From: a virus
Length of the DNA stretch: 54,038 bases
Reading direction: 5' to 3' (one strand)
Virus record (IMG/VR): IMGVR_UViG_3300048590_000251
Span: 1-54,038 of that record
A model generated the notes under the pieces. That model was not told the DNA's origin, did not search any database, and worked only from the letters and a program-made list of their open reading frames with translations. Below are positions 2,228-50,987 of the stretch, one piece after another; positions within the stretch are counted from its first letter, which is position 1; every line of letters begins with the position of its first letter. Both the position numbers and the translations under genes were made by a program.

Positions 2228-2235
2228 GAGGCGCA

Positions 2236-3601: not shown

Positions 3602-3626
3602 TCTGTTCTCCCTCTCGAAGCCTTCG

Positions 3627-28673: not shown

Positions 28674-28686
28674 CGGAGGCCGTCAC

Positions 28687-30741: not shown

Positions 30742-33119
30742 GTTTCTTCGATGGAGCGGTGTCCGGGTTCTTCGCCGGGCGGGATTGGCGCGAAGGCAGA
30801 GATGCCCGCAAGCGTCAGCGTGAACTTGCGGAGATCGAGGAAAACCGACGCGCCGAAGAGTTCGGGTGGCGCCGGGATGAGCAGAAATTCCGCGTCGATA
30901 CCCTCTCCGCCCAGAAACGCGCCCGCGAACAGGCCGAGAAAGACGCCGAGGAAGAGCGAAAGGCGTTTGCCGAAGCCTACGGGGACGCCAAGGCGGCATC
31001 CGAGGGCGATGCGGGCACAGAGGCCGGGCCCGGCGCCCCTGACCCCAATGTCGCGCCGGACACGCCTGCCGGCGAGAGCACGAGCCCGCAATCGGTGCGC
31101 GAGATCACCGCAGGGCGGTCTGCGCCTGCTTATGGCGACGTTGCCCCTCCGAGGCCGCAGAAGCCGCCGGCCATTGTCAGCGATGCCCCGTCGATCGGCG
31201 CCTCTCTCGCGTCCGGGCCGGACGCGCCGCAAATGCCGGCCATGCCCGATATGCCGATCCCGCGACAGGGAGGGAAGGCGCTGCACCCGCCCTATCTCGA
31301 TCCGGCGCCCAACGTGCCGCCGCCGGACGGAAAGACCGGGCGTGTGGTCTTCGCGGAGTCGAGTGGTCTTCCGCAGCCCTATATCGCCAAAGCCCGCGAA
31401 TTTGACGCCTTGCAGGCGTGGCTTGAGCGCGGAGTCAGCACCGATACCGGGCAGCCGCTCAGCGAGACCGAGCGCGCCAGCGCGATTGCACGGCTGGCCG
31501 AGTTCGACCGGACGCTGCGCGGCGCCGCCGACCAGGTGGCAGAGGCAACTGGAGGCAGAAAGAGCGTTGCCCCGTCGCAGGAGATGGCCCACAGACCGCA
31601 GCGCATCGGCGACCGGCCTTCCACCTATGCGCCGGACGCGGCTCCCGCCGCGCCACAACCGCCGCGACCCATACCATCGGACGGGCTTGGCCCCCGTGCC
31701 GCCTTCGCCGAGGGCAACGGACTCGACGCGCAGACGGTCCTGATGGCGCAGGAAGCCGACAGGATGGAGGCCATGTTGCAGGATTCCGCGATGGAACCCA
31801 ACATGCGCAAGACTGTCGAGGCACGCCTCGCCGCACATGAAGAGCGACTCAACGGAGCCGCGCTCGCCGCCGGAATTGCCCCGCCGCGCGATCCGCGCGC
31901 CACGGATGCCGCCGTTCTCGACCAGCGCGCCCCGCCGCCGCAAATGGCCGTGGTGCCTGCCGGGATGCCGTCTCCGCCGCCAGATACCGCGATGGATGCC
32001 GGGTTTGTGCGTCCCGCTCCGGAGGAGAAGGTAAGCCGGGAGGCGCGGATCACCAGGCCCGACCTGCCGATCCCGCGTCCCCGTCCAGCGACCGTGGGCG
32101 GCGTCCGGGTTCCGTTTGGAGAGAAAGGCGCGGTGGACGCGCCGCCGGTGGTGGATGGGCCGCCTGCGGGCCCCGTGAGCAGCGCGCCGCCGGCCGCCGC
32201 CCAGCCCCCGTCCGATCCGGCTGCACCGCAACCCATCGCGCAGACCCCGCCGCCGCCGCAGGCAGCGCCTGACGGCGTTCCGTTGACGGAGCAGGGAACA
32301 CCGGCAACATCGGTCGATGCGGCGCAGGCGACCGCGCCGAAGCGCGATCACCCCGCGAAGAAGGGCGTGATCGGAGAGGGGATGCCGGTCAAGGCCACGC
32401 AGAAGCAACGCGAAAAGGCGGGCAAGGACTTCCTGACCTACTACGCCGAGAAGGGCGCGCCCAGGATCATCGAACACTACCTGAAGACCGGGCAGGTCGA
32501 GAAGGCTGTCGCGTTCCGGGATTTCATCCAGGACGAGCAGGTGAAGGCGGGGATGAAGAGCTGGTCGATGGCAGCTCACGCCGCAGCGATCGGAGATGAC
32601 GAAGGGTTCGTCAAGTATCTGGCCGAAGCCTACAACAGGCGCGGCTATTTCGATGACGGGTTCTCCGTCGTGGCAGAGGACTCCGGCCTGATCCGCGACA
32701 AGAGCGGCAGCGTAACCGGCGCCCAGATCACCTACAAGAAGGACGGCACCGGCGAAATATTCGTGGAGAAGGTCGATTCTCTCGATAACCTCTACGAGCA
32801 GGGACTCTGGATGCTGTCACCGGAGAAGATATTCGAGACAGGGTGGAACGATGTCCAAGCGGGCAGGGCCGCGCGGGCTGAAGTGACCAAGAAACTGGCG
32901 GAGGCGGGTCTCCCCGCCACACGAGCGAAGGCGGTCCTCGACACAATGGAAAAACTCTCGAAGTCGAACCTCAACTTCTCGCAACTGCCAGTGGAGGAAC
33001 AGGTGTCGCAGGCCATCGCCTTCCTTGATAGTGGCGGCGCCACGCCGACACCACCTTCCGCCACCGCATCCGGCGTCGGCGCCAACCCGCAGGGCGGCAG
33101 CCTGCCCTTCTACAACTGA
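30738..33119 (+). CDS. ejection-module protein with internal duplicate (793 aa)
   Basis: GTG start overlapping the lysozyme stop (GTGA). Residues 1-95 form a charged coiled coil (QRELAEIEENRRAEEFGWRRDEQKFRVDTLSAQKRAREQAEKDAEEERKAF). A long Pro/Ala-rich region follows, containing two related helical modules at about 190-275 (FAESSGLPQPYIAKAREFDALQAWLERG...ASAIARLAEFDRTLRGAADQVAEA) and 315-378 (FAEGNGLDAQTVLMAQEADRMEAMLQDS...KTVEARLAAHEERLNGAALAAG). The last 240 residues are a well-ordered helical domain (KATQKQREKAGKDFLTYYAEKGAPRIIEHYLKTGQVEKAVAFRDFIQDEQ). Position and size match an internal virion/ejection protein. Function at atomic level unknown. Confidence 0.75.
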   Translation: MSFFDGAVSGFFAGRDWREGRDARKRQRELAEIEENRRAEEFGWRRDEQKFRVDTLSAQKRAREQAEKDAEEERKAFAEAYGDAKAASEGDAGTEAGPGAPDPNVAPDTPAGESTSPQSVREITAGRSAPAYGDVAPPRPQKPPAIVSDAPSIGASLASGPDAPQMPAMPDMPIPRQGGKALHPPYLDPAPNVPPPDGKTGRVVFAESSGLPQPYIAKAREFDALQAWLERGVSTDTGQPLSETERASAIARLAEFDRTLRGAADQVAEATGGRKSVAPSQEMAHRPQRIGDRPSTYAPDAAPAAPQPPRPIPSDGLGPRAAFAEGNGLDAQTVLMAQEADRMEAMLQDSAMEPNMRKTVEARLAAHEERLNGAALAAGIAPPRDPRATDAAVLDQRAPPPQMAVVPAGMPSPPPDTAMDAGFVRPAPEEKVSREARITRPDLPIPRPRPATVGGVRVPFGEKGAVDAPPVVDGPPAGPVSSAPPAAAQPPSDPAAPQPIAQTPPPPQAAPDGVPLTEQGTPATSVDAAQATAPKRDHPAKKGVIGEGMPVKATQKQREKAGKDFLTYYAEKGAPRIIEHYLKTGQVEKAVAFRDFIQDEQVKAGMKSWSMAAHAAAIGDDEGFVKYLAEAYNRRGYFDDGFSVVAEDSGLIRDKSGSVTGAQITYKKDGTGEIFVEKVDSLDNLYEQGLWMLSPEKIFETGWNDVQAGRAARAEVTKKLAEAGLPATRAKAVLDTMEKLSKSNLNFSQLPVEEQVSQAIAFLDSGGATPTPPSATASGVGANPQGGSLPFYN

Positions 33120-33156: not shown

Positions 33157-36100
33157 GTGGCCGACAACATCTTCGCCAAGAACCCTCTGGATGCCACCCT
33201 GGAGGGCATGACCGCCCTGAAAACGCCGCCGCAAAGCCCGCGCGCGGCGTTCGAGGCCGCGTCGCGCTCCAGCGGAGTGCCGATCAACATTCTGCTGGCG
33301 GCAGCGGAAGCCTCGGGGGCGAAGACGGGAGAGGATGCCATCCGCGTCGTAGAGGCTGTGTCCGGAGAGTGGGGCGGCAGGATCAGGGCCGGGGAACCGA
33401 TCGAGCGCGTCGTCGGCGCGACCCTTGGTGGCGACGAGGCGGCGACGGCACAGTTTCTGGACCGCGCCCGCGCTCTCGGCCGGGAGTATTACCCCGATCT
33501 GGCGCCGAAGGAGCCGGGTTTCGTCGGCAATGTCGGGCGGGTTCTCGGCGCCTCTCTGGTGCGCGGCGGCGGAATGGCCGCCGAAGGTGTTGCCAATGCG
33601 GCGGCCTCCGCCATGGACAGCCAGCGCGCCATCCTCGGTGGGATCGGCGATGCCGCCCGCAAGGCCGCCGATGCCCTCGGGGTCAAGGACTTCGGCGGCT
33701 ACGTTGCCGACGAACTCGGCGTCACCACAGCCGCGGAATGGGCAGACCGGGGCGCCAGAGAGGCCGCTGATCGGGCGCAGGATGCCGGACGCTTCGTCGG
33801 CGACGCCGCCGCAGACAAATCGGACAGCATCCGGGAAGGTCTGTCCGACCGCGCCAGGCAGGCAATGGCGGGCAGCACCCCTGACGGGGTGATCTACGAC
33901 CCGCGGACATGGAGTCTCGGCGAGAACGCATCGTTGGAGGGCTACACCTATCACGCCGTCGATGTGCTGGGATCCCTGATCCCCGTCATTCTCGCCGGGA
34001 TCGCCACGGGCGGTATCGGAGCGGCGGCAGTCGGCGCCGCCATGGGCGGCGGCGAGGGCTCGCAGACCGCGCGGCAAGTGGTCGATGAGGCTTACAAGAA
34101 CGGCACCCTCGACCAATCGCCGATGTTCAGGCGTCTGGTCGCGGAAGGCGCCAGCCCGGACGATGCCTATGACCGAGTGCGCCGCGAGGCAGCCAAGGCC
34201 GGGACGCTGTTCCAGGCCCCGGTGAGCGCCTTCGGCGGATACGCCACCGCCTCGATCGTCAAGGGAACGGTCGGAAAGGCCGTCGGCGGTGGGATCATGC
34301 GCCGCGCCATTGCCTCCGGCGTGGCCTCGGCCGCCGAGGAGGGCTTGCAGGAGGCGGCGGAAACCGTCTCCGCAAACCTTGGCATCAAGGCCACGACTGG
34401 CCTGAAAATCAACATCGCCGACGGCACGTTCGGCGATTTCGTCTTGGGCGCCATCGGCGGCGCCGGTCCGGGCGCGGTCGGTGGGGCGCTTGGGCGGGGT
34501 CATGCCGGTGATCCGTCCAGGCGGCCGCCTGTCGCGGCACCCCCCCAGGAACCACCGGAGCCGGAGCCGGATGGGGGCATTCCCGCGGCAGGCGGTCAAC
34601 AACCCGTTCCAGCGGCGCCCGACCTCGCGCCCGAGCCGTCGCCGCTCCGGGATGCCGCCCGCGCCGCACCGCCGCCGGCCGCCGGAGATATCGCGCCGGG
34701 GTCGCGCGTCATCCTGAAATCCTCCGACAGCGCGCCTCCCGGCGAGCGTGTCCCCGACATGACCGGAACCTTTGTCGGCGAAAAGGGCCGCATGGTCCTG
34801 ATTGCCGACGAGGACGGAGAGGTTGTCGAGATTCCGCGCAACGCTTTCGATCTGGGAGCAGTGTCGATGCAGGCACTTGCGCTAGATCCGATGCTGCCGG
34901 AAACAGACGCGCCGGCCGATCCGGAGGCTCCGCCGCAGCCAGATATGGCTCAAGCGCCCCAGCCTGACCTTCAGCCGCCCGCGCCGGCCGCAGAGGTGCC
35001 GCCGCCGCAAGAAATTCCGCCGGCCGTAGATGTGTCTCCCGCTCCGGACGTCCCCGAGGATGTGGTGCGCCGCCGCTTGCGCATGATCGAGGATATCGCC
35101 AAACGCGACGGATGGACCGCCGATCTGATCGCCCAGCGAGACGCAGCCCGTGAGGCAGTCGCCAGAATTGGCGCGTCCATGGGCGTGGGTCCGGAACCCA
35201 GGCCACCGAACCCAGAGACGGAGGATACAGGCGATGTGGTTGAACCTGGACGAGCTTCAGAGGGACAGGGTGATCACGGCGTGGGAAGCGACCGCGCTGC
35301 GCCAGTGGCTCGACTCCCCGACGCCGGAAGTCCTGCCGAAGGAATGCCCGCTGTCAGAGATCCTGAACCGGATCCGCCTCCATCAATGGACCCCGGACCG
35401 CGCGCACTGACTCAGGAGACTGCGGAGAAGAAGACGGTCACGCCCGATCTGGTGACGGTTCGGGATGTCTACGGCAAGAGACACCGCGTGAGAAAGCCGG
35501 ATCTGGACGGCGACCGGGCCATGCTGCCCACGTTCAACGCCAATGGCGAAAGGACGAATGGCACGCTGCTGCACCGCGACAACATCGACCCGGACGGGTC
35601 CGGGGTGCGCGCCACCTACGCATCCGCGCCTTACATCGCCAAGGAAAATGACCGGCCGTTCGCGACCGAGGCGGCGGCGAAGGCCGCTGTGCGACACGTC
35701 AATCAGGATTTGGCGGATTTCAAAATCAAGCCGGTCAATGGCGGCTTTGTCGCGGTGCGCAAGAAGGCAAAACCGGACGCGGAGACGGCGCCAGAGACCC
35801 CGGATGCCCTTTCGATCGAGGATATCCGCACCAAGGCGGCGATCCTGCGCGGCTGGACCGGCGACAAGCCGCCCGTGGTCGACGGCGTGCTGTTTTCCCA
35901 CGATGTGAAGGCGGGCGGGTATACCTTCTCCCGCAAGCACAAGGAGAAGGTCGGGGCGGCGCTCAAGGTGGGTGCGAAGCCCGCGGCAGGCGAACCCCTG
36001 ACGGGCGAGATCATCACCCCGGAAGATGACGCGGAAGCGCGGCGCAAGGCGGCCACTTCGGTCGGCATCGAGCTGACCGATGCGCCGTTGCCGGTGCGCG

Positions 36101-39100
36101 CGCCGTGGTGGACCGACGCCAGCCCCGAGGTTCGGGCGGCGATCCTCGACGCGGCAGGCCCGCAGGCCACCAGAGACGCGCGCCAGACCCACGGATGGGA
36201 AAACCTGAGCGATGCCACCCGCAGGGCGCTCCTTGACGCGCACGGCCGCCTCTATCGCGCGGGCGAGATCACCAATGTCGGCACCATCGAGGCGCCACGC
36301 TACGCGCTGGCGGGCGCGAAGCCTGACGGCAGCCCGGCCTTGCCGGACAAGGACGCCGCGCGGATCTGGAACGCCACCCCGCCAGCGCGACGCGAAGCCA
36401 TCGTTGTCGAAGCCGGATGGGTGGTGAGCTCCGGCGTGAACAAGGGCCATGCCAGCCCGGTGGGCCGCAAGATCGCGCAGCGAACATGGAAGGAGCACCC
36501 GGAGAACATCGCATCGGTGCTGAGCGCGGCGATGAACAGGCTCGGGATGCGTTCGGCTCTCGAAGACACGATTTCCGGGACCAACGCGGACACCGAATCG
36601 GCATCTCAGGAAAATCCCGCAACGACCGACCAGAGCGAACCGACGCAAACCGCCGCGTCTCCCGCTGTGCCGACCCCGGCGCAGGCCGAGGCCGGCAACT
36701 ACCGCATGAAGCACGTCAGCTTTCAGGGCCTCGACATCACCATCGAGACCGAGAAAGGCCAGGAGCGGCGCGGCAAGGACAAGGACGGCGAGGAATGGTC
36801 GGTCACGATGCCGGCCGATTATGGCTACATCAAGCGCACCGAGGGGGCCGACGGCGATCACGTCGACGCCTATCTCGGCGACATGGCCGACAGTGATTTC
36901 GTGCTGATCGTCAATCAGGTCGATGCCGACACCGGCGCCTTCGATGAACACAAGGTCATCCTCGGGGCGATGGGCCGCAATGCGGCGCTGGACATCTACC
37001 GCGGCGGGTTCTCGGATGGCCGCGCCAATGACCGGATCGGCTCTTTCACCGCGACCAACATCGCCGGGTTCAAGGCATGGCTGGCAGCGGGGCCGCACAA
37101 GGCCGCGACGCAGAATCTGGACTTCCCGTTCAAGAAGAAGGCCGCCGATACGGATCGGACTCAATCGACGCCGATCATTTCCGATGACAAGCCAGCAGCC
37201 GATCCCGACACCGCCGAACAGGCCGCGATTCGCGCCCGCATCGAGAAGGAAGAGAAGGCCAACCCGGATCCCAAGCCGGTCATCGACTTCCGCGACATGA
37301 CCCAAGGGGTCGAGGGCCTGGCGCTGATCCGCGCCCTGCGCCTCGCCGGGGATGACGCCGCAACCCGGCAGCGGACGGCGAATGAGTGGGTGCATGGGCA
37401 ATTCAAGCGCACCGGCATGGAGCATCTGGTCGTTCTCGACAGGGAGGGCAAACTGTTGGTGGCGGCCGAGGGATCGGTCAACCATGTCGGGTTCCCGAAC
37501 TGGCTGAGCAATTACGCCAAGACCAAGATGATCTCCTACAATATCCACAACCACCCCTCCAACAGGGGCCCGAGCCCGGGCGACCTGGCGGCGGCGGCCT
37601 CCGGTTTCCGACCGGTCCATATCATCGGTGCGGACAAGGCGCTGCGCGGCTACAGCCCGACCCCGACCTTCATGGAGGGAGCGCCCAAGAGCATCTTCGC
37701 CTATGATGCCATTCGGGAAATTATTGACACGATCGACGGCGCCGTCGTCGGCATCATTCAGGCCCAGATCACCAATGGCGCCGTCAAGATAGATGACGCC
37801 AACGTCCTGCACAGCCATGCTGTTGCCAGGGCGATGGCCGAGGCCGGGGCGCTGGAGATCACCGGCAATGACATGGCGGCCGAAATCGACGCCGCCGGCA
37901 TCAATCAGGGAGAGATCAATGAGCGAGTCGCAGAAATACTTGCCCCATGGCTTCGACGGACCGGACAGCCTGTCGCCAAAGTCGGAGATCAAGGCGCTGC
38001 TGAACCGGCTGAAAGCGATACCGGCACCGGACGGCGTGGTGAAGAGGCGGATACGGCAGACCGAGAAGATGCTGGGCGCGGCGACGCTCAAGGGCGGGTT
38101 CCGACCCCCGCCGCGGTAAAGCCGGCCAAGGCCGGTTCGGCTGCCGTCCAGTTGAAAAACTGGACCGGGCTGGAGGTCAACGCCTACGACGACGAGACTT
38201 CGGATGATGGCCGAAATTCCAAGGTCAAGAACGAGTGGAAGAGCGACGCCACCCGATTTGGCCGGGCCATTGCGGCGATCCTGAAAGATGCCGGGTTCAC
38301 CGCGCCGCTTCCGGGCGGCCGGGCGCAAAGGGGCAAGACACCGAAGCCGATCAACCCGGTATCGTGGAATGCCAGCGGCATCGCCGGGTCTGGTGAGGTC
38401 AGCGTTTCGCTCGACGGCCCGGATGGGTTCGGCGTCTATATCCACATGGATGCCGATGGTCGGTCCATGGGCGGGGAAAGCCCGGTCCGCATCTACTGGC
38501 GTGTTCGGAAGAACACCGACTCGCCCTACGGCGGCGAAATGAACCAGTGGGTTCAGGACAAGCAGATTGCCGCTGGCGACATCACTGACATGATCCTGAA
38601 AGCGATCGAGCGCCGGGCGGCACAGCCCGAGGCGGCAAAGCCAGAGCCGACTCCGCAGCCCATGACCGAAGACCCGAAGATCCCTCGCGGATACGAGTTG
38701 ACCTATATCAAGCGCGCGACCGGACCAGAGGCCCGAGCCAACGGCTTCACTCCGGGAGAGCCGCACAAGGCGGTCATCAGGCGCGACCAGCCCTACGGCG
38801 TCTACGATTTTGTTGGAAAGACCCGTGCGGATGCCATCGCAGGCGCTCTGAGACTGGCAATGAAGCCCGCGACCCGCCCGACGCCCCAGGTGCCGCCGAT
38901 GGCCGGAATGACCCCGATGGGGGCCAAGCCGGAGCCCGACGCGACCAAAAAGCCGTCAGATGTTGAGGCCGAACAGGCGGAGACAGATCCGGGCACTGTC
39001 CCCACTTCTTCGCAAACATCTCCCCCAACAAATGCCGATAATCCGGCGATTATCCCGATCACGGAGCCGCCGAAGAAGAGCGGCGCCCTGTCCAACCTGT

Positions 39101-42100
39101 CGCAGGCCAAGCAGGACCGGGCCGCTCTGCTGCGCGCCAGGATCGCCGACCGGCTCAAGAACCAGTTGAACACCGGCGTTGACCCGGCGCTGCTGGTCGA
39201 TGCGATCGAACTGGCCGGCATCTACATCGAATCCGGCTTCCGCAAATTCCGCGACGTGCTGAAAGCCGTCGCCGCCGACATGGGCCTGACCGAGGTCGAT
39301 GCCGAGCCGTGGGTGCGCGCCGGCTACAACGAGGCCCGCGACGGCCTCGAACTGGCGGATGAAGATGTCTCCGACATGGACGACAGCAAGGCCGTGCTGG
39401 CGCATGTCCGCGACATCAGGAAAGCCGCGAAAGAAGGTTTGGAAAAGCCGGTAGACGCACCTATATCTGACGCACCAGCCACCGAGGGTGAACCCGATGA
39501 GCCGCAGACAAGAACTGGTCGAGATGGCCGAGGAAATGAAGGCCGAGAGTCAGGCGCTGATCGACAAGGAAATCTCGGAACCGGGGAGCCGGATGGAAAC
39601 CGAGGCGATCGAGACCTGGAAGAACAACAACCCGACACTCTACCGGGTGATGAAGGAACGCGGCGCACTGGAGGCGACGGCACACGTCGTGGTCCATCGG
39701 ATACTGGAGCAGGCCAAGCGGATGACCAAAGCGGGGATGCCGCCGTCGGAAGCCCGGACGGAAGCCTACCGCGACCAGATGATGCTGGACTAGAAGCGCA
39801 AAAGCCCGACGAACCGGCATCGCCGGCGCGCTCGAACTACCGCATTGATGATCCCGAGGCTCTGGTCGGCGGAACGCCGAAGCGCCGCTTCGCGCGCAAC
39901 CGTGAAGCCATCGAAGCCTATCAGAGCATCAGGGACGAAGCCCGCGAGCCTACCCCGCAGGAACTGGATGCCATGGCATCCTATATCGGCTGGGGATCGT
40001 TCGGGCAGCAACTCTTTCAGGGAACCTGGACCCGGCCGCGGTTCGTGGACGGCTGGAAATCCGAGAACGAATGGCTGCGTCAGCACTTGGGCAAGGACGA
40101 GTGGGAAGACGCCCAGCGCAGCATCATCAATGCGCATTATACCGACCCGCCGACGGTCAGGGCAATGTGGGGCATGGTCGAGCGACTCGGCTTCAAGGGT
40201 GGCAGGGTGCTGGAGCCCTCCATGGGAATCGGCAACTTCTTCGGCATGATGCCCGCGCAACTGGCCGCCAATTCGCAGCTCACCGGAATCGAACTGGACT
40301 CGCTGACCGGCGGCATGGCGAAACTGCTCTATCCGCGCGCTGCCGTGTCCGTGATGGGCTATCAGGACAGCCGGACGCCTGACAACTTCTACGATCTCGT
40401 GATCGGCAACTGGCCCTTCGCCAATATCGAGGTGCCGGATCGGCGCTACATGAAGCTGAAGCCGAGCCTGCACGACTACTTCTTCCTCAAGGCGCTCGAC
40501 CAGGTGCGGCCCGGCGGCCTCGTGGTCGGCATCACCTCCGCCTTCACCATGGACAAGAAGGCCACCAATATCCGGGCGGCACTCGCCCGCCGCGCGGATC
40601 TTGTCGCCACCTTCCGCCTGCCAAGCGGTGCGTTCGAGAAATATGCCGGAACCAGCGTCGTCACCGACATCATCATCCTGCAAAAGCGGCAAGAGCCGAT
40701 CCTCGACATTTCCGGGGTTACGTGGGTTCGGACAGCAGAGGTGGACACCCCGGCAGGAACGCCGGTGACGGTCAACCAGACCTATGCCGACAACCCGGAT
40801 AAGGTTCTCGGCACCCTCAATTTCGGCACCGGATCGACCTATGGCGCCCCGAGCATGATCGTGGATCGACCGGCCGATCTCCTGGAGCGGCTGGAGGCGC
40901 TGCCGGCGACGCTGCCGGAAGGGGTCTACACCGCCACCCAGCGGGGCAAGGAGCCGCGGTTCATCTCAAACCACACGACCGCGCAGCAAAACAGCGTGAC
41001 CGAGGTCAAGGGTGTTCTCTACCAGGTCCAAGGCGAGCGGCTGGTCCGGTTCGAGGACGTGGCGAAATACAAGGTGAAGGACGCCAAGAAGACCGCAGCG
41101 CGCGAGGCCGAGATCATCGCCTTCATCGACATGCGCGAGAAGTTGGGCGCGGTCATCGACGCCGACCGGGCCGGCACCGAGGATGCCGACACCAAGCGCA
41201 AGGCGCTACGCAAAGCCTTCGATGCCTTCCGCAAGGCGCACGGGAATATCGCCGACTCGCTGGCGCTGTCGCTCCTGCTTCGGGCCAAAGACCCCGGCGC
41301 CCCGATGGTTCAGGCGCTGGAGGCCAAAGACGGCACGCCTGCGGCAATCCTGTCCCGGCCCACCATTCGGGCGCCCTCGACGCTGGAAAACCCCAGCATC
41401 CGTGACGCCTTCGTGATTGCGCGCAACGAGTCCGTGGCCTTCGACCTCGAACGGGTCGCAGCGCTTGCCAAGGCGAAGCCCGAAGAGGTGATCGCGGATC
41501 TGGCCGGATCCGGGGCAATTTATCGCACTCCCGGTGGCGCCTATGAGGTCGCCGATGCCTACCTGTCGGGGAACGTTCGGCAGAAGTTGCGGGAGGCAAA
41601 GGCCGCTGCCGAGGCTGGTGAGGATATGGCGGCTTCGATCTCGGCGCTGGAAAAAGTCCTGCCGCCGTTCCGGCCCTATTACGACATCGAGGCCAAACTT
41701 GGCGCGATGTGGATCCCCGATCAGGTCTATATGGACTTCCTGACCGAGAAACTCGGAATGTCGCCGATCCAGAGGCAGAACAGCGAAGTGCGCTGGTCAG
41801 CGGGCGCATGGCGGCCGCGCCTCGACCCGTCGCTCAACCACAAGCCGGAAGCGTCCTCGGTCGGTCACTCAGATGTCCGCATCGGCAGCTTCATCAGCCA
41901 CGCGATGAACAACCAGACCATCATCGTGAAATACCGGGACAACGAAGGGGAACACAAGGACGAGAAGGCGAGCGAGGAAGCCAACGCCAAGGCGGCCAAG
42001 CTGCGCGAGGACTTCTCCGAATGGGTCTGGTCCGATCCCGAGCGGCGCCACGACCTTGAACTGGCCTATAACGAGCAGATGAACGCCATCGCCACCCCGC

Positions 42101-45100
42101 AATTCGACGGGTCGTTCCTCGATTTTCAGGGCATGGCCCTGCAACGCGGCGATCAGGAGTTCAACCTGCGCCGGCACCAGGCCAATGCGATCTGGCGCGG
42201 CATCCTCAACGGGCGTGGCATCTATGCCCATGAGGTCGGCACCGGCAAGACCATCACCATGGCCGGCATCGCCGTCGAGAGCCGCCGCTACGGGAAGGCC
42301 AGAAAGCCGCTGGTCGTGGCGCATAACGCCAACTCCAAGGCTGTCGCCAACGAAATGCAGGAGACCTATCCGGGTGGGAAGTTCCTCTACATCGACAACC
42401 TGGCCCCCGGCGAAATCGAGGCCGAGATGCGCCGCATCGCCACCGACGATTGGGATGCGGTCATCATCCCGCACTCGCTGCTGGACCGGATGGCGTTGAG
42501 CCAGAAAACCCTCGAGGCTCTGGCCGCAAAGGAAATCGAGGCGCTGGAAGCCGAAGCTCTTGCCGCCGCCGCAGAGGATGGAGCCGACCTCACCCTTGAG
42601 GACATGGACGATCCGGACGCCATGAAGAAGGTTCGATCCCCGACCGCAAAGCAACTGGTCAAGGCGCGCGAGAACATCATCGCCTCGATCCAGAAGGCCG
42701 CGCTGCGCGCATCGAAAGACGGTGCCGTGCCATTCGAGGATCTTGGCATCGACATGCTGATCGTGGACGAGAGCCACGAGTTCAAGAAGCCCTCGATCGC
42801 CACGCGGATGACCGTGAAGGGCTTGAACAAGGCCACGTCGGCGCGCTCGATCCAGTTGAAATTCCTGTCGGATTATATCCGCGGCCAGAACAACGGACGC
42901 GGCGTCCACGTCTTCACTGGCACTCCGATCACCAACACCCTGACCGAAATCTACCATCAGATGCGCTATGTGATGGAAGACGTGATGGAGCAGAGCAACA
43001 TCTCGGCCTGGGACGGGTTCTTCAACACCTTCGCCGCCTCCGTGCCCGACATCGAGCTGACCTCGGCCGGCGATTACCAGAGTGTCGAGCGTCTTTCGTC
43101 CTTCGTGAACGTGCCCGAACTGCGCCGGATGGCCGGGCAATACATGGACATCGTGTTCGCCGACGACATGCCGGAAATGCAGCCACGGCGCGCGTCGAGC
43201 GGCAAGACGCTTCTCGACAGCGACCTCACCAAGGCTGACCGGGACGAATTGCGCAACGGGCGCCAGGAGAACCCCGAAGGCCGCCCCTACAAGGAGGTGA
43301 TCCACGACATCGCCGACATGGAGCCGGATCAGCGCCGCATCCTCGATCAATCCATTCGCTTCGCCAGGCAGTTTCGCGTCCTGTCGGGCAGGGATAAGAT
43401 TGACGTCATGCGCCGCGGTGGGCCTGATGCCCCGATCGTGTTCGATGCCGTGCCGTCCAGGGCCGGGCTCGATATCCGACTCCACGAGATCGACGCCGAG
43501 GACTCGCCGACCAGCAAGGCCAACCGCGCGGTGCGCAACGTCACCCAGATCTACAATGAGGACAAGCACACCACTCAGGTCATCTTCATGGACGAGGGCT
43601 ATTCGGACTCGGTAACGAGGGTGAAGAAGAAAGACGGTGAAGTCGTCAGCCGCGAGAAGGTCGAGAAGTTCAACCTTGCCAAGGATATCGTGGCAAAACT
43701 GGTGGCGGCCGGGATCCCCGAGGCTGAGATCGCCATTGTCAACAAGGATGTGTCGAAGGAACAGCGCGCCAAGATTTCCGAGCAGATGAACAACCTGCAA
43801 ACCCGCGTCGTGATCGGCCTGACCTCCACTCTTGGCGTCGGCGTGAACATGCAGAAATACCTGCGGGCCATGCACCACCTCGACGCGCCCTGGATGCCTG
43901 GCGATCTGGAGCAGCGCAACGGACGCGGCCAGCGTCAGGGCAACGAGTGGAACACGGTTCTGGAGTATCGCTATCTGACGGAAGGGCTGGACGGCCGCCG
44001 CTGGCAGGTTCTCACCATCAAGGACCGCTTCATCAAGGCATTCCTGAAAGCCGAGGATGGCGTGAGGGTGATCGAGGGCGACGCCACTGATGACGCCACC
44101 AGTATGGGCGCCGACGATCTGGCCGCAACGCTGTCCGAGGCGGCCGGCGATCCGCGCATCTTTCAGGTCAAGAAGTTGGAAAAGGACATCGAGCGCCTGC
44201 AACGGCGCGAACGGCTGCACGTCGATGGCGTCGCCGATGCCAGGCGCAAGGTCAAGAAGTTGCGCGATTCCATCCCGCGAACCGAGGATAGTGTCGCCGA
44301 CCTGGAGCGAGCGACAGAAGAAGTCGCGATGGCGCGCGAAAAGGGCTTTACCGCGACCATCGACGGAAAGACATTCGACAGTCGCGACGATGCGGCAAAA
44401 GCCATGGATGCGCTTGTCCAGCCGATCGTGGCGCGCGGGGGGCACAGCCTCTCGACAGAGTGGCGGGATATCCCGGCATCGGTGCAGGGCTTCCAGATCC
44501 AGATCAAGAGATCGAACCTGATGCGAGACGGTCAGGTCCTGGTCGATTTCCGCGTCAAATACGATGGCGTTGGCGATTATGACACCATGGGGGCGCCGAG
44601 CGTCGCATCCGCAGAGGCGGTGCTCCGCAAGATCGCGGATCGGCTGGAGAGGGCCCGCACCCAACTGGCAGAGGACCGCGCCAGTGCAGACCGCATCGAG
44701 AAAGCCGCCGCCGCTCCGTTCCAGCAAGCCGAAGCCCTGAAAAAGAAGAAGGTTCAGGTTGAAGCCCTGCTTCAGGATCTCAAGGATAATCCCGTTGCGC
44801 CGCCGTCGTGGTTGCGACAGGGCGCTCCGATCGACAGCGTGATCCACGTTGACAAAAAACCCCGCGCCGTGACCGGACATCGCTGGACCAAGGATGGGTG
44901 GTTCGTCAGCACGGAAGCGGGAGACGTTCCGTATCTCGACGCCCGAAGCGAGACGGGGGTTCCGCTCTATCAGGAACGCCCCTTCGAGCCGCCGCAGATC
45001 GAGGAAGGATCGAAGCTCCGGACCGGCGACGAGCGGGATGAAGCGGAGATGTCGGAACCGAGGCCCCCACCCGTCACATCCCTGACGGGTGATGAGCTTG

Positions 45101-48100
45101 GGATTGTGGCGGATATTCGGGAACTCGGCCGCGCCGCGGAAGGCTGGTATACGGACAACCTCATCGGGAAATCCGTGGTCAATGCCGAAACCGGCTGGGA
45201 TATCCGCTTCTCCCGTCGAGGCGCGAAGAAAATCGGCGGTCGAAAGGGTGAGTATCTCTATCGGATCGTGCCTGCCCTCGCCGAGATCGTGAGGGGCGGG
45301 CATCTGATCGGAACCGAGATAGACCGGGGCGCAGACGGCCAAACGACAAGGTGGCATCGGTTCTCGGCGGCTGTCGAACTCGCCGGGGTCATCAAGGACG
45401 TGATCATCACCGTCCGTGAGGCCCCGAACGGCAAGTTCCACTACGATCTATCCAGGGACACCAGCGACGGCGCCCGCTTCTTCCATGCCAGCCCTCCGGT
45501 ATCAGAAGCCGGTGCGAGGCAGGATGACGCGCGCGCCGCCTCACTGAATATAGATGAGGTATCTTCCTTCGGCAACGGGGCAGAGGAAATTCCTGATGCC
45601 GACATTGCCGCCATCGCGGCCGAGGTGGACAGCCTGATGCGCCGCATCGGACTCGCCGGAACGGTGCGGACCGACGTCGTGAGGGCGATCATCGACGCGG
45701 CCGGGACGGAGCGGGCCGGCGCCAGTGGACTCTACAGCCGCGGCGCTGGTCGCATCCAGATCCGGGCCGACGCGGTTGCGGGGCCGATTCCGACGTTGCG
45801 CCACGAGATCATCCATGCGCTGCGCGACGCCGCGCTCTGGGGGCGGGACTACGGCCTCTTCACCAGGGAAGAATGGCGGGCGCTGGTGCGCTCGGCGCGG
45901 GCCGACAAGGCGGCAGTCAAGGACGTTGACGCCCGCTACCCGAACCTGCCCGAGATCGGGCGCACCGAAGAACTGGTTGCCGAACTCTACCGCAAATGGG
46001 CGACAGGGGAAGTCTCGCCGGGCCTGGCGTCAACCGCCCTTGGCCGTATCCGGTCCTTCTTCATGGCGCTGGCAAATGCGCTGCGCGGCAGGGGCTTCAC
46101 TTCGACAGCCGCGATCTTTCGCGGCATCGAGCGCGGCGATATCGCCGCCAGAGCCATGCCGCGCGACGCCAGCGGGCAGTTCATCAGCCTGGCGGAAGCC
46201 GCGATGGTGGACATGTCCGCCGAACCGGAAGCCACCACCGAGACCGCGTTCGACCGCAAGGAACGCAAGTTCCTCTCGAACCTGTTGACCGATGCGATGG
46301 GCGGGCGCGGGCGCTTCAATCTGCTTGCGCTGGTTCCGGGCCGGCCACTGTTCACCGAACTCGGGCGGAAGATGCCGAGCGCGCTGACATTCCTGCGCAT
46401 CAAGGAGGAAATGGACGCGACACGGCAGGAGTGGCATGAAGCGTCCGACCGTCTGGCGACCGATTGGCGCGGGCACCTGTCCCGCGACGGTGCGGGAAAC
46501 CGCGCGATGATGGATCTCATGCACGATGCCACGATCGCCGGGCTGGACCCGTCCAAGCCTTACAAGTCCGCGGTCCGGGACGGTGATGAGCGCCTTGCGC
46601 ACGGCGACGACGAGCGGGCGGAGGCGGCGCGCGGGCGACTCATGGCAGAACCGAGGCGCCGGGCGAAATACGACCGTCTTCAAGCGAGGTTCCGGGATCT
46701 GTCTCCGGACTTCCAGCGCCTGTTCGGCGAAGTTCGCGACATGCACAAGAAGATGGGCGCCGACTTCGAACGCACCATCCTCGACAATGTGCGCAAGGCC
46801 ATGGAAATCGCCAGCGACCGGGCGCGAGAGGCTTATGACGACGAGATGCGGCGCATCCGCGACGAGGGCCTGCAAGGCGCAGAGCGGACCGAGGCCGAGA
46901 AGGAGGCGCGGAAGAAACGCGACGGCGCCCTGCGTCGCCAGCACGTCGCCAAGGCGGCGCGACTCGCATCCCTGCGCAGCATCTTCGAGACGAACAAGGT
47001 GGAGGAGCCGTATTTCCCCCTGATGCGCTTCGGAAAATACGTCGTGACCGTGCGCGATGAAGAGGGGAAGGTGATCTCCTTCTCCAAGTTCGAGAGCGAA
47101 GCCAAGCAGCAGGCTTTCGCGGCAGAGATGCGCGCGATCCGCGGGCAGACCGTCCAGATCGGAACGATGGACGACGATTTCACCGCCCGGAAGCATGTGG
47201 ACCCGAACTTCGTGGCCGATGTCGAGGAAATGATCGGAGATACCGTCGCCGATCCGGAGATCATGGACGCGATCTGGCAACGCTGGCTCGATACCCTGCC
47301 CGATATGTCGGTGCGCAAGAGCCGCATCCACCGGAAGGGGACGCCAGGCTATTCGGATGACGCCTTCCGCGCCTTCGGCTACCAGATGTTCCACGGCGCG
47401 CACCAGCTCGCGCGCCTGAAATACACCATGGACCTCGACAAGGCGGTGGAGGACGCGAAGCGCGAGGCGGCCGCATCCGACGACCCCAACCGGACGATGC
47501 TAGTCGTGTCGGAAATGGAGCGCCGCAAGGCGTTCACGATGAACCCGACCGGAAGCGCGACAGCGCAGATGTTCACCTCCGCCGCCTTCATCTACTATCT
47601 CGGGTTCACGCCCGCCGCGGCGATGGTGAACCTGACGCAGACTACAGTGGTCGGGATCCCGATCCTGTCGTCGGCTTTCGAGAAGGGCGGCGTGGCCCGC
47701 GCCAGCCGGGAACTGATGCGGGCCGCCGGCGACTTCGGTCGCGGGAAGGCGCACGCAGAACGCTCGTCGCGCCTGACCGAGGACGAGCGCGCTGCGCTGG
47801 CCGAAGCCTATCGGCGCGGCACGATCGACAAGAGCCAGGCGCACGATCTGGCCGGCGTCGGCGAAACCGGCATCGAGCCCGACTCCACGATGCTGCGCCG
47901 CATCCTGAGCGACCGGGCGGCCCATCAGTGGGTCGGGGTCCGCAAGAAGGCGATGGCCGGGATCTCCTTCATGTTCCATCACACCGAAAGGGCGAACCGA
48001 GAGATCACCTTCCTTGCCGCCTACCGGATGGCAAAGGACAACGGGTTCACCGGCGAGGCCGCGATCGACAAGGCTGGCGACGTGACGTGGAAGACGCATT

Positions 48101-49119
48101 TTGACTACCAGAACTCGTCCAGGCCCCGCCTGATGCAAAACGACACCGCAAAGGTTCTGCTGGTCTTCCGGAACTTCCAGTTGAACATGCTGTGGCGCCT
48201 GTTCCGCGACACGCACCAGGCATTCGCCGGAGAAACCCCGCAGCTTCGCCGCGAAGCGCGTGGGCAACTGATCGGGATCACGGCGATGCTGATGCTCCAT
48301 GCCGGAGTCCGCGGCGTCTGGGGCTATGCAATCATCATGGGGTTGCTAAGCCTCCTGCCGGGCGCCGGAACCGCCGATGATCTTGAGGACGAAATCAAGA
48401 CGGCGCTGGTCAATCTCTTCGGCCCTTATGTGGCTGGGCTCATTCTGAACGGCGTCCCCGGCCAGGTTCTCGGGGTCGATCTTACTGCCCGCATCGGGAT
48501 GCCGGAGCTTTGGTTCCGATCATCAGATCGAAACCTCGAAGGCGATGATGCCTACAATTACTGGCTGCAACAGATGGTCGGGGCGGTCCCCGGCATGTTC
48601 GAGAACGGCTGGCGCGGCATGAGCATGATTGGCGACGGCGAGGTCGCTCGCGGCATCGAGGCGATGATGCCGAAGGCGGCGCGGGACTGGATGAAGACCT
48701 ATCGCTATCTCCGCGAAGGCGTCACCACCTATCGCGGCGACCCGTTGATCGACAACCTCTCCGCAACTGATGCGATCAAGCAGGCGATCGGTTTCACGCC
48801 TGCAAAGGTATCGGAGCGATACGAGGAGAACACCAGGCTGCGGAACCGCGAAGGCGAAATCATGGGCGCACGGAAGCGGGTTCTCAATGATGCGGCGGCC
48901 GCGATCAAGAGGGGCAAGGGGCTACCGTCGAGCGTTCTGGAGTCGATCGACGCCTTCAACCGCGCGAACCCGGACTATCCGATCACCGGCGACACGATCC
49001 GCCAGTCGATGCGTTCGCGGCTGCGCTACAGCGACCAGACCGAAGGCGGAGTCCGGTTGAACCCGAAACTGAACGAGCGTCTGCGACGGGAGGCGGCGCC
49101 ACGCATCAGCGGCGGCTGA
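33157..49119 (+). CDS. giant polyvalent ejection protein (5,320 aa)
   Basis: Begins at a GTG after a weak GAAAGAG box; the longer upstream frame is arginine/histidine/proline-rich and not protein-like. In order: an N-terminal helical, weakly transglycosylase-like segment (about 27-115); Ala/Gly-rich hydrophobic segments (about 267-302 and 379-405); an SH3-like domain (509-572); an inorganic-pyrophosphatase-like domain (1182-1325; GDHVDAYLG); a JAB/Mov34-like domain with IHNHPSNRGPSPGD (1463-1476); a DarB-type adenine methylase (LEPSMGIGNFFG 2352-2363; GNWPF 2417-2421); an SNF2 helicase (HEVGTGKT 3025-3032; VDESHEF 3203-3209; EQRNGRGQRQG 3585-3595); a coiled coil (3672-3730); an HEIIH zincin (4216-4220); a C-terminal LPD38-like region (about 4615-5310) with a hydrophobic span (5042-5072). 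The likely role is an internal protein ejected with the DNA, shielding it from restriction. Linkers are Pro/Asp/Glu/Gly/Arg-rich and hide three small ORFs. Confidence 0.9.
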   Translation: MADNIFAKNPLDATLEGMTALKTPPQSPRAAFEAASRSSGVPINILLAAAEASGAKTGEDAIRVVEAVSGEWGGRIRAGEPIERVVGATLGGDEAATAQFLDRARALGREYYPDLAPKEPGFVGNVGRVLGASLVRGGGMAAEGVANAAASAMDSQRAILGGIGDAARKAADALGVKDFGGYVADELGVTTAAEWADRGAREAADRAQDAGRFVGDAAADKSDSIREGLSDRARQAMAGSTPDGVIYDPRTWSLGENASLEGYTYHAVDVLGSLIPVILAGIATGGIGAAAVGAAMGGGEGSQTARQVVDEAYKNGTLDQSPMFRRLVAEGASPDDAYDRVRREAAKAGTLFQAPVSAFGGYATASIVKGTVGKAVGGGIMRRAIASGVASAAEEGLQEAAETVSANLGIKATTGLKINIADGTFGDFVLGAIGGAGPGAVGGALGRGHAGDPSRRPPVAAPPQEPPEPEPDGGIPAAGGQQPVPAAPDLAPEPSPLRDAARAAPPPAAGDIAPGSRVILKSSDSAPPGERVPDMTGTFVGEKGRMVLIADEDGEVVEIPRNAFDLGAVSMQALALDPMLPETDAPADPEAPPQPDMAQAPQPDLQPPAPAAEVPPPQEIPPAVDVSPAPDVPEDVVRRRLRMIEDIAKRDGWTADLIAQRDAAREAVARIGASMGVGPEPRPPNPETEDTGDVVEPGRASEGQGDHGVGSDRAAPVARLPDAGSPAEGMPAVRDPEPDPPPSMDPGPRALTQETAEKKTVTPDLVTVRDVYGKRHRVRKPDLDGDRAMLPTFNANGERTNGTLLHRDNIDPDGSGVRATYASAPYIAKENDRPFATEAAAKAAVRHVNQDLADFKIKPVNGGFVAVRKKAKPDAETAPETPDALSIEDIRTKAAILRGWTGDKPPVVDGVLFSHDVKAGGYTFSRKHKEKVGAALKVGAKPAAGEPLTGEIITPEDDAEARRKAATSVGIELTDAPLPVRAPWWTDASPEVRAAILDAAGPQATRDARQTHGWENLSDATRRALLDAHGRLYRAGEITNVGTIEAPRYALAGAKPDGSPALPDKDAARIWNATPPARREAIVVEAGWVVSSGVNKGHASPVGRKIAQRTWKEHPENIASVLSAAMNRLGMRSALEDTISGTNADTESASQENPATTDQSEPTQTAASPAVPTPAQAEAGNYRMKHVSFQGLDITIETEKGQERRGKDKDGEEWSVTMPADYGYIKRTEGADGDHVDAYLGDMADSDFVLIVNQVDADTGAFDEHKVILGAMGRNAALDIYRGGFSDGRANDRIGSFTATNIAGFKAWLAAGPHKAATQNLDFPFKKKAADTDRTQSTPIISDDKPAADPDTAEQAAIRARIEKEEKANPDPKPVIDFRDMTQGVEGLALIRALRLAGDDAATRQRTANEWVHGQFKRTGMEHLVVLDREGKLLVAAEGSVNHVGFPNWLSNYAKTKMISYNIHNHPSNRGPSPGDLAAAASGFRPVHIIGADKALRGYSPTPTFMEGAPKSIFAYDAIREIIDTIDGAVVGIIQAQITNGAVKIDDANVLHSHAVARAMAEAGALEITGNDMAAEIDAAGINQGEINERVAEILAPWLRRTGQPVAKVGDQGAAEPAESDTGTGRRGEEADTADREDAGRGDAQGRVPTPAAVKPAKAGSAAVQLKNWTGLEVNAYDDETSDDGRNSKVKNEWKSDATRFGRAIAAILKDAGFTAPLPGGRAQRGKTPKPINPVSWNASGIAGSGEVSVSLDGPDGFGVYIHMDADGRSMGGESPVRIYWRVRKNTDSPYGGEMNQWVQDKQIAAGDITDMILKAIERRAAQPEAAKPEPTPQPMTEDPKIPRGYELTYIKRATGPEARANGFTPGEPHKAVIRRDQPYGVYDFVGKTRADAIAGALRLAMKPATRPTPQVPPMAGMTPMGAKPEPDATKKPSDVEAEQAETDPGTVPTSSQTSPPTNADNPAIIPITEPPKKSGALSNLSQAKQDRAALLRARIADRLKNQLNTGVDPALLVDAIELAGIYIESGFRKFRDVLKAVAADMGLTEVDAEPWVRAGYNEARDGLELADEDVSDMDDSKAVLAHVRDIRKAAKEGLEKPVDAPISDAPATEGEPDEPQTRTGRDGRGNEGRESGADRQGNLGTGEPDGNRGDRDLEEQQPDTLPGDEGTRRTGGDGTRRGPSDTGAGQADDQSGDAAVGSPDGSLPRPDDAGLEAQKPDEPASPARSNYRIDDPEALVGGTPKRRFARNREAIEAYQSIRDEAREPTPQELDAMASYIGWGSFGQQLFQGTWTRPRFVDGWKSENEWLRQHLGKDEWEDAQRSIINAHYTDPPTVRAMWGMVERLGFKGGRVLEPSMGIGNFFGMMPAQLAANSQLTGIELDSLTGGMAKLLYPRAAVSVMGYQDSRTPDNFYDLVIGNWPFANIEVPDRRYMKLKPSLHDYFFLKALDQVRPGGLVVGITSAFTMDKKATNIRAALARRADLVATFRLPSGAFEKYAGTSVVTDIIILQKRQEPILDISGVTWVRTAEVDTPAGTPVTVNQTYADNPDKVLGTLNFGTGSTYGAPSMIVDRPADLLERLEALPATLPEGVYTATQRGKEPRFISNHTTAQQNSVTEVKGVLYQVQGERLVRFEDVAKYKVKDAKKTAAREAEIIAFIDMREKLGAVIDADRAGTEDADTKRKALRKAFDAFRKAHGNIADSLALSLLLRAKDPGAPMVQALEAKDGTPAAILSRPTIRAPSTLENPSIRDAFVIARNESVAFDLERVAALAKAKPEEVIADLAGSGAIYRTPGGAYEVADAYLSGNVRQKLREAKAAAEAGEDMAASISALEKVLPPFRPYYDIEAKLGAMWIPDQVYMDFLTEKLGMSPIQRQNSEVRWSAGAWRPRLDPSLNHKPEASSVGHSDVRIGSFISHAMNNQTIIVKYRDNEGEHKDEKASEEANAKAAKLREDFSEWVWSDPERRHDLELAYNEQMNAIATPQFDGSFLDFQGMALQRGDQEFNLRRHQANAIWRGILNGRGIYAHEVGTGKTITMAGIAVESRRYGKARKPLVVAHNANSKAVANEMQETYPGGKFLYIDNLAPGEIEAEMRRIATDDWDAVIIPHSLLDRMALSQKTLEALAAKEIEALEAEALAAAAEDGADLTLEDMDDPDAMKKVRSPTAKQLVKARENIIASIQKAALRASKDGAVPFEDLGIDMLIVDESHEFKKPSIATRMTVKGLNKATSARSIQLKFLSDYIRGQNNGRGVHVFTGTPITNTLTEIYHQMRYVMEDVMEQSNISAWDGFFNTFAASVPDIELTSAGDYQSVERLSSFVNVPELRRMAGQYMDIVFADDMPEMQPRRASSGKTLLDSDLTKADRDELRNGRQENPEGRPYKEVIHDIADMEPDQRRILDQSIRFARQFRVLSGRDKIDVMRRGGPDAPIVFDAVPSRAGLDIRLHEIDAEDSPTSKANRAVRNVTQIYNEDKHTTQVIFMDEGYSDSVTRVKKKDGEVVSREKVEKFNLAKDIVAKLVAAGIPEAEIAIVNKDVSKEQRAKISEQMNNLQTRVVIGLTSTLGVGVNMQKYLRAMHHLDAPWMPGDLEQRNGRGQRQGNEWNTVLEYRYLTEGLDGRRWQVLTIKDRFIKAFLKAEDGVRVIEGDATDDATSMGADDLAATLSEAAGDPRIFQVKKLEKDIERLQRRERLHVDGVADARRKVKKLRDSIPRTEDSVADLERATEEVAMAREKGFTATIDGKTFDSRDDAAKAMDALVQPIVARGGHSLSTEWRDIPASVQGFQIQIKRSNLMRDGQVLVDFRVKYDGVGDYDTMGAPSVASAEAVLRKIADRLERARTQLAEDRASADRIEKAAAAPFQQAEALKKKKVQVEALLQDLKDNPVAPPSWLRQGAPIDSVIHVDKKPRAVTGHRWTKDGWFVSTEAGDVPYLDARSETGVPLYQERPFEPPQIEEGSKLRTGDERDEAEMSEPRPPPVTSLTGDELGIVADIRELGRAAEGWYTDNLIGKSVVNAETGWDIRFSRRGAKKIGGRKGEYLYRIVPALAEIVRGGHLIGTEIDRGADGQTTRWHRFSAAVELAGVIKDVIITVREAPNGKFHYDLSRDTSDGARFFHASPPVSEAGARQDDARAASLNIDEVSSFGNGAEEIPDADIAAIAAEVDSLMRRIGLAGTVRTDVVRAIIDAAGTERAGASGLYSRGAGRIQIRADAVAGPIPTLRHEIIHALRDAALWGRDYGLFTREEWRALVRSARADKAAVKDVDARYPNLPEIGRTEELVAELYRKWATGEVSPGLASTALGRIRSFFMALANALRGRGFTSTAAIFRGIERGDIAARAMPRDASGQFISLAEAAMVDMSAEPEATTETAFDRKERKFLSNLLTDAMGGRGRFNLLALVPGRPLFTELGRKMPSALTFLRIKEEMDATRQEWHEASDRLATDWRGHLSRDGAGNRAMMDLMHDATIAGLDPSKPYKSAVRDGDERLAHGDDERAEAARGRLMAEPRRRAKYDRLQARFRDLSPDFQRLFGEVRDMHKKMGADFERTILDNVRKAMEIASDRAREAYDDEMRRIRDEGLQGAERTEAEKEARKKRDGALRRQHVAKAARLASLRSIFETNKVEEPYFPLMRFGKYVVTVRDEEGKVISFSKFESEAKQQAFAAEMRAIRGQTVQIGTMDDDFTARKHVDPNFVADVEEMIGDTVADPEIMDAIWQRWLDTLPDMSVRKSRIHRKGTPGYSDDAFRAFGYQMFHGAHQLARLKYTMDLDKAVEDAKREAAASDDPNRTMLVVSEMERRKAFTMNPTGSATAQMFTSAAFIYYLGFTPAAAMVNLTQTTVVGIPILSSAFEKGGVARASRELMRAAGDFGRGKAHAERSSRLTEDERAALAEAYRRGTIDKSQAHDLAGVGETGIEPDSTMLRRILSDRAAHQWVGVRKKAMAGISFMFHHTERANREITFLAAYRMAKDNGFTGEAAIDKAGDVTWKTHFDYQNSSRPRLMQNDTAKVLLVFRNFQLNMLWRLFRDTHQAFAGETPQLRREARGQLIGITAMLMLHAGVRGVWGYAIIMGLLSLLPGAGTADDLEDEIKTALVNLFGPYVAGLILNGVPGQVLGVDLTARIGMPELWFRSSDRNLEGDDAYNYWLQQMVGAVPGMFENGWRGMSMIGDGEVARGIEAMMPKAARDWMKTYRYLREGVTTYRGDPLIDNLSATDAIKQAIGFTPAKVSERYEENTRLRNREGEIMGARKRVLNDAAAAIKRGKGLPSSVLESIDAFNRANPDYPITGDTIRQSMRSRLRYSDQTEGGVRLNPKLNERLRREAAPRISGG
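35234..35410 (+). CDS. nested ORF 1 in the giant gene (58 aa)
   Basis: In the +1 frame relative to the giant gene. ATG with GGAGG nine bases upstream. Product MWLNLDELQRDRVITAWEAT and further 38 residues (ALRQWLDSPTPEVLPKECPLSEILNRIRLHQWTPDRAH) has normal, helix-forming composition, while the giant frame at the same place is a Pro/Asp/Glu/Gly linker (residues about 693-752). Function unknown. Whether it is translated is untested. Confidence 0.5.
   Translation: MWLNLDELQRDRVITAWEATALRQWLDSPTPEVLPKECPLSEILNRIRLHQWTPDRAH
37919..38119 (+). CDS. nested ORF 2 in the giant gene (66 aa)
   Basis: In the +1 frame, overlapping the linker (giant residues 1588-1654) just after the JAB-like domain. The ATG is six bases from GGAG within AGGGAGAG. 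Sequence MSESQKYLPHGFDGPDSLSP then KSEIKALLNRLKAIPAPDGVVKRRIRQTEKMLGAATLKGGFRPPPR: compact basic helical protein, well-formed composition. The giant frame here is Gly/Asp/Arg-rich. Function unknown. Confidence 0.55.
   Translation: MSESQKYLPHGFDGPDSLSPKSEIKALLNRLKAIPAPDGVVKRRIRQTEKMLGAATLKGGFRPPPR
39497..39793 (+). CDS. nested ORF 3 in the giant gene (98 aa)
   Basis: In the +1 frame, in the linker just before the methylase domain (giant residues 2114-2212). ATG with GAGGG eight bases before it; an in-frame GTG lies three codons earlier. The product MSRRQELVEMAEEMKAESQA, then LIDKEISEPGSRMETEAIETWKNNNPTLYRVMKERGALEATAHVVVHRILEQAKRMTKAGMPPSEARTEAYRDQMMLD, is a regular helical protein. By hand count about 80 of 98 codons end in G or C, so the codon pattern of this stretch fits the small ORF. 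The giant frame is low-complexity here. I do not know its function. Confidence 0.6.
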   Translation: MSRRQELVEMAEEMKAESQALIDKEISEPGSRMETEAIETWKNNNPTLYRVMKERGALEATAHVVVHRILEQAKRMTKAGMPPSEARTEAYRDQMMLD

Positions 49120-50922: not shown

Positions 50923-50987
50923 TCGAAGATATGGTCATTGTCGTGGCCTGCATCGGGGCGCTCCTGCTGATCTGGGGGCTGTCCTGA
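50919..50987 (+). CDS. 22-residue transmembrane microprotein
   Basis: The sequence MIEDMVIVVACIGALLLIWG plus two residues (LS) is almost entirely a single membrane span. ATG overlaps the endolysin stop (ATGA), and its stop overlaps the next gene start (TGATG). Perfect coupling at both ends makes translation plausible. Perhaps a helper of the holin/spanin system. Confidence 0.45.
   Translation: MIEDMVIVVACIGALLLIWGLS

Follow-up and report, generated by a model that had tools for sequence, protein, structure and literature searches.

DarB of phage P1 belongs to the capsid and bears a packaging signal at its N-terminus (PMC9024508); it acts in cis to protect DNA (Iyer 2017 with the references cited there, PMC5512222). 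Iyer 2017 described the class of polyvalent proteins, with chains of >2,000 aa and of up to 12,242 aa, and reported a single prophage protein joining SNF2, adenine methylase and metallopeptidase domains (PMC5512222). DarB-like giants have also been published for Atu_ph08 (gp21, PMC6630229), CSP3 (orf43, PMC10269572) and Parlo (PMC6606913), and mass spectrometry of JC1 virions purified on CsCl detected gp69 through 51 unique peptides, at 15.6% coverage (PMC9144972). Here, we analyzed IMG/VR virus record IMGVR_UViG_3300048590_000251, positions 1 to 54,038 (54,038 nucleotides, hereafter the window), in which one plus-strand gene, at 33157–49119, encodes a protein of 5,320 residues. We propose that this giant, a DarB-like polyvalent protein, is very probably packed in the virion and ejected with the phage DNA, that its methylase-SNF2 dyad would protect that DNA in cis, and that metalloprotease processing of the chain may occur.

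Results

The giant gene starts with GTG, and its translation gave 5,320 residues followed by a single terminal stop. From stop to stop the frame spans 5,410 codons. An alternative listed start, TTG at 33025 (5,364 aa), is disfavored because it falls within the frame before, whose end is at 33119. With the base composition of the window, a stop-free run of 5,320 codons has a chance probability of about 10^-60. Third-position G+C stays between 0.64 and 0.85 all along the gene, which accounts for the long antisense frames within it (up to 1,190 aa). L015, a relative from IMG/VR, aligned colinearly with the giant protein (49.5% identity over 3,448 columns), and this colinearity and the high third-position G+C together indicate that the frame is coding rather than merely open. 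A second IMG/VR contig, L001, was 100% identical across window positions 30057–52156; as both contigs may derive from one population, it is only weak independent proof of the frame. The uninterrupted frame of 5,320 codons claimed in the original prediction, which was made from the DNA letters, was thus borne out by translation, third-position G+C, L015 colinearity and the identical L001 contig.

Most of the chain is covered by PHROG 10089 ('DarB-like antirestriction'), which matched successive parts with E values of 1.3e-261, 8.2e-221 and 1e-289. All domains described below lie on the plus strand. The N-terminal ejection-type region (residues 157–446, 33625–34494) resembles the N-terminal part of the PHROG 2206 virion RNA polymerase of phage N4 type (phrog_2206, E 2.4e-11), and relatives also matched this family with E values down to 1.5e-15. 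A composition artefact was ruled out for this likeness, as two shuffled copies gave no match and several relatives matched the same family. By hydropathy, the only strongly hydrophobic stretch of the region is at residues 274–292, and residues ~400–800 are rich in proline and poorly conserved. Next comes an InPase domain (residues 1175–1309, 36679–37083; PF18823, E 2.9e-46), whose acidic residues D1232, D1237, D1263 and E1264 are invariant in 29 sequences, with D1234 present in 93%; it also matched the C-terminal domain of a structurally solved phage portal (PDB 9b41), to which an InPase is thus fused. After a JAMM/RadC-like domain, a conserved domain of no assigned function (residues ~1987–2135, 39115–39561), with BLAST matches in many relatives, precedes the methylase-SNF2 dyad (residues ~2210–3750). 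LPD3 (residues 3986–4096, 45112–45444; PF18798, E 2e-26), a zincin, LPD39 (residues 4375–4577, 46279–46887; PF18858, E 7.8e-60) and the tail-700/PLxRFG C-terminal domain (residues 4618–5306, 47008–49074; NCBIfam NF032893, E 2.8e-235), with PLMRFG at 4621, complete the chain. The tail-700 region is its most widely shared part, found in about 40 relatives.

The domains therefore follow the order originally proposed for the pyrophosphatase-like (PF18823), JAB-like, DarB methylase, SNF2 and HEIIH zincin parts, and the presence of InPase, LPD3, LPD39, helicase and dyad in one large chain, with JAMM and zincin recognized by motif and model, agrees with a polyvalent protein in the sense of Iyer 2017. 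The predicted LPD38-like C-terminus had to be given up: LPD38 (PF18857), a family that was silent in the control genomes too, was matched neither in the genome search nor by the C-terminal part at E<=10, and the C-terminus consists instead of LPD39 and tail-700/PLxRFG. A PDB sequence search with the dyad and the C-terminus returned nothing informative.

Within the dyad, the DarB-type adenine methylase (residues ~2300–2560, 40054–40836) was recognized through phrog_10089, phrog_11801 and a motif alignment. Its motif I, VLEPSMGIGNF at 2351, is intact, and its motif IV at 2418 reads NWPF. C-terminal to it lies the SNF2/SF2 helicase (residues ~3002–3600, 42160–43956), which gave ResIII, SNF2-rel_dom and Helicase_C matches and has a Walker A GTGKT, a DESH box and QRNGRGQRQG, with motifs I, II, III, V and VI conserved. 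Matches to DrmD, BrxHI and similar PADLOC/NCBIfam entries were rejected as signs of a defence system, being partial helicase or methylase matches, the NCBIfam ones far below their cut-offs.

The closest dyads are those of USP_18, L015 and the prophage loci L033 (Sphingobium) and L034 (Loktanella), which are ~47–59% identical and all carry NWPF. In a dyad tree, all six NWPF proteins fell on one branch with support 100, whereas in a tree built on tail-700 from these 28 proteins NWPF needs at least four changes, and a topology forcing the NWPF proteins together was rejected (p-AU 8e-36). Over the C-terminal 967 residues, the giants of the Pseudomonas phages USP_18 (L005) and 8P (L011) share 92% identity, and their N-terminal parts share 77–97%, but their dyads are only 37% and 31% identical. 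In the relatives L013, L016, L019 and L025, a Strawberry-notch helicase with N6_Mtase replaces the DarB dyad. Judged from these comparisons, the dyad is a swappable cassette, and USP_18/8P a clean natural domain swap.

The two putative metal-dependent domains were modeled with AlphaFold2 on alignments that comprised only sequences from the window and the retrieved loci. The JAMM/RadC-like domain (residues ~1388–1604, 37318–37968) has a complete ligand set, E1422, H1464, H1466, S1473 and D1476, invariant in 12 sequences. Its model had a mean pLDDT of 67 and its top PDB match was RadC 2qlc (probability 0.91 but E 0.017), followed by the MPN/JAMM proteins Npl4, CSN5 and proteasome lid. In Pfam the region had no match, to RadC families included; tblastn found no homologues of it in phages and plasmids, and the homologues that did surface came from the motif of the giants themselves and from a single BLAST match, in L040. 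The zincin (residues ~4147–4284, 45595–46008) carries HEIIH at 4216–4220, and HExxH is invariant in 16 aligned sequences. A candidate third ligand lies in the later EELVAE helix (4271–4276), where EE..AE is conserved. The zincin core was modeled with pLDDT >90, and its fold matches in a viral library were phage proteins, several of them named large polyvalent proteins, with E values down to 9e-7; the HEIIH region had no match in Pfam. On the basis of the models, both assignments are likely, and that of the zincin is the likelier. Conserved catalytic residues and predicted folds thus support what the original prediction claimed as JAB-like and HEIIH parts.

Nearly all relatives whose PLxRFG region is intact have an HExxH motif within ~370–840 residues ahead of PLxRFG, against a chance expectation of ~0.01 HExxH per 900 residues. 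A Rhizobiales clade (Atu_ph08, L037–L041, L043, L044, L048, L049 and L052) carries the JAMM motif in this slot instead, 430–438 residues before PLxRFG, and never both motifs there. Because the JAMM-slot proteins form one clade, this exchange counts as one replacement only. The giant of L002 (IMGVR_UViG_3300031987_000002) has neither zincin nor JAMM in the slot, a degenerate EEILVH replacing HExxH, and to judge by its sequence it has probably lost its peptidase. The giant protein studied here and the Hoeflea locus L042 have the zincin in the slot and, after InPase, a JAMM as well. What looks new is a slot for a metallopeptidase ahead of LPD39, holding a zincin in most relatives and a JAMM in the Rhizobiales clade, and the presence of both domains in the giant studied here. 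In the literature searched, in which subscription journals were covered only in small part, we found no earlier description of either the slot or the cassette exchange of the dyad.

Giants occupy the matching locus in BcepIL02 (4,667 aa), Skulduggery (3,695), USP_18 (4,947, QLI49405), Atu_ph08 (4,877), PEp14 (4,914), POI1126 (4,841), Mwe-JY07 (4,985), LASTA (4,433) and 8P (5,145), and JC1 gp69 is 30% identical to the giant protein over ~1,900 residues. Fourteen more records have stop-to-stop open frames of 4,448–5,980 codons, compared with 5,410 here; L025 has 5,980, Rhizobium sp. Root1203 5,396 and Sagittula salina 5,351. An exceptional size is ruled out by these lengths. The union of such domains in a chain of this size had been expected to be exceptional, which does not hold given same-locus giants of 3,695–5,145 aa, frames of up to 5,980 codons and the precedents of Iyer 2017. 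The frame of L025 (IMGVR_UViG_3300035661_000067) encodes DdrB-ParB, LPD5, LPD1, Strawberry-notch helicase and N6 methylase parts. Megablast found no isolated-phage relatives at the nucleotide level. The 29 genome loci with relatives are mostly from Rhodobacterales and Rhizobiales, and from this bias we infer that the host is probably an alphaproteobacterium.

The giant gene is placed between virion genes (portal, capsid and tail) and lysis genes, with a muramidase gene after it. A separate tail lysozyme domain (Phage_lysozyme2, 30274–30675, plus strand, within the ORF 29863–30741; PF18013, E 3.7e-32) lies nearby, in agreement with the predicted adjacency of a tail lysozyme, and is the probable cell-wall opening partner of the giant. 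The neighboring gene at 30546–33119 (plus strand) encodes a large virion protein of up to 857 aa whose start codon is unsure (phrog_9667 virion structural protein, E 1.1e-41). Upstream, a gene for a GNAT-type acyl-CoA N-acyltransferase (window 28618–29148, phrog_4470) stands amid virion genes; BcepIL02, Skulduggery, JC1 and LASTA have a similar gene in the corresponding position, and the upstream GNAT and virion-protein genes are ordered as in BcepIL02. The phage is podovirus-type, with the Bcep22, PBC5 and Skulduggery groups as its relatives.

Elsewhere in the window, the muramidase (PF11860, in the ORF 49885–50922) precedes a probable embedded Rz/Rz1 lysis pair at 50396–51328, in which a putative Rz-type spanin is overlapped in another frame by an Rz1-like lipoprotein with an SCAAP lipobox, as in Lessievirus. 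A small protein matching phrog_10057, labelled DNA methyltransferase despite a length of only 153 aa, is encoded at 15691–16152 between the terminase and portal genes. A RecT-like annealing protein and an exonuclease form a pair on the minus strand at 4475–6336, opposite to the virion genes. The frame at 51815–54037 runs past the window end and has weak Hoc-like/virion structural matches; it probably encodes a receptor-binding or decoration protein.

Discussion

Overall, we provide a putative mechanism for the DarB-like giant. The protein would be packed in the virion, with the N-terminal region that resembles virion RNA polymerases and the LPD39/tail-700 C-terminal region serving as the chassis for packaging and ejection. 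It would then enter the host with the phage DNA, through the wall opened by the lysozyme. The dyad would translocate along the incoming DNA, covering or methylating it, and so provide cis protection from restriction. The zincin, perhaps also the JAMM, may cut the chain or a host protein, which would separate the parts, and the pyrophosphatase-like domain may remove a nucleotide signal or pyrophosphate. Injection is supported by the likeness of the N-terminus to virion RNA polymerases, a class of injected proteins. Of the role first proposed for this protein, that of an injected polyvalent virion protein probably stands, its virion presence being drawn from the JC1 relative; for the phage itself, we infer packaging, injection, actual methylation, protein processing and their targets.

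Several observations weigh against this mechanism. Virion presence is known from JC1 gp69 and P1 DarB only and is predicted for the phage described here. In place of NPPF, the methylase has NWPF as its motif IV, a variant found throughout its clade, so that methylation is not assured; the PDB fold matches of the zincin are weak, even though they include the metallopeptidases MATCAP, selecase and abylysin; and L002 has lost the first histidine of its zincin motif, which means that some members can do without proteolysis. As to the methylase, motif IV of P1 DarB is NVPF, and N6 methylases of the KsgA and Erm types carry NLPY/NIPY; because of these variants, NWPF does not exclude methylation, which stays predicted. 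The altered motif and the degenerate zincin of one relative would also suit a mainly mechanical ejection protein, part of an envelope-spanning conduit, in which the enzymatic domains are secondary or decayed. The N-terminal likeness to virion RNA polymerase N-termini with its one strong hydrophobic segment, and the fact that tail-700 is the most widely shared part of the chain, point the same way. However, helicase, InPase, JAMM and zincin all retain intact catalytic motifs under strong conservation, and relatives swap the dyad as one unit and do not lose it. We therefore consider a mainly mechanical role unlikely. Far less probable still, to the point of being negligible, is an assembly chimera or a read-through of several genes. 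The chain does exceed the named phage homologues in length, but its sequence recurs identically in the second contig, its order of parts agrees with many relatives among isolates and prophages, and giants of up to 5,145 aa are present in complete phage genomes.

The role of the JAMM domain is more evenly balanced. Iyer 2017 confines RadC to conjugative elements in its summary, while its RadC section mentions prophages (PMC5512222); the present RadC-like domain, found in a chain of phage type, agrees with that section. There is close to an even chance, tilting slightly against, that the JAMM is a RadC-type nuclease or nucleotide-processing enzyme and not a peptidase: RadC is its best structural match, Iyer 2017 advanced a nucleic-acid hypothesis for RadC (PMC5512222), and the JAMM adjoins InPase in the giant protein. 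In contrast, the JAMM of the Rhizobiales giants occupies the zincin slot, which suggests peptidase equivalence, albeit from one clade and one event. We can only tentatively speculate, and rather doubt, that the slot, which would lie between the protective cassette and the C-terminal ejection chassis, must hold a metalloprotease as the ejected chain needs cutting to release its parts, that the JAMMs of phage giants are accordingly proteases and not nucleases, and that two metalloproteases are present here. The USP_18/8P dyad swap and the zincin/JAMM exchange offer directly testable handles on the function of each part, above all on cutting after injection.

These data add a large, well-resolved member to the family, from a lineage with prophage relatives mostly in Alphaproteobacteria, and show that such chains evolve by exchange of cassettes on a stable chassis, which consists chiefly of LPD39 and tail-700. 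The notion of an unusual size or domain mix is corrected, as the giant belongs to a published family. Compared with the Iyer 2017 polyvalent proteins, it is alike in being multi-domain and very large and in having a phage-type InPase, MPTase, LPD3, LPD39 and methylase-SNF2 dyad, and it differs in its RadC-like JAMM in a phage-type chain (PMC5512222). P1 DarB (2,255 aa) has homologous methylase (E 3e-23) and helicase (E 1e-20) regions but is much smaller, has no InPase, JAMM, zincin or tail-700 match, and works with DarA, DdrA, DdrB, Hdf and Ulx (PMC9024508, PMC9144972). The DarB-like giants of Bcep22-type and related phages (BcepIL02 gp70, JC1 gp69 with 4,515 aa, Atu_ph08 gp21, PEp14 and 8P; PHROG 10089) lie at the same locus and share the methylase-SNF2 dyad and the peptidase slot before the C-terminal region, that of JC1 being virion-associated. 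They differ in having an NPPF methylase and no JAMM beside InPase, in contrast to NWPF and a JAMM after InPase here. BcepIL02 gp70 has a fused N-terminal transglycosylase (SLT), whereas the tail lysozyme is separate in the phage described here, and BcepIL02 lacks the PLxRFG motif, which is present here as PLMRFG. USP_18 shares its tail with phage 8P; this tail is distant from that of the giant described here (27%), and the domain set outside the dyad differs.
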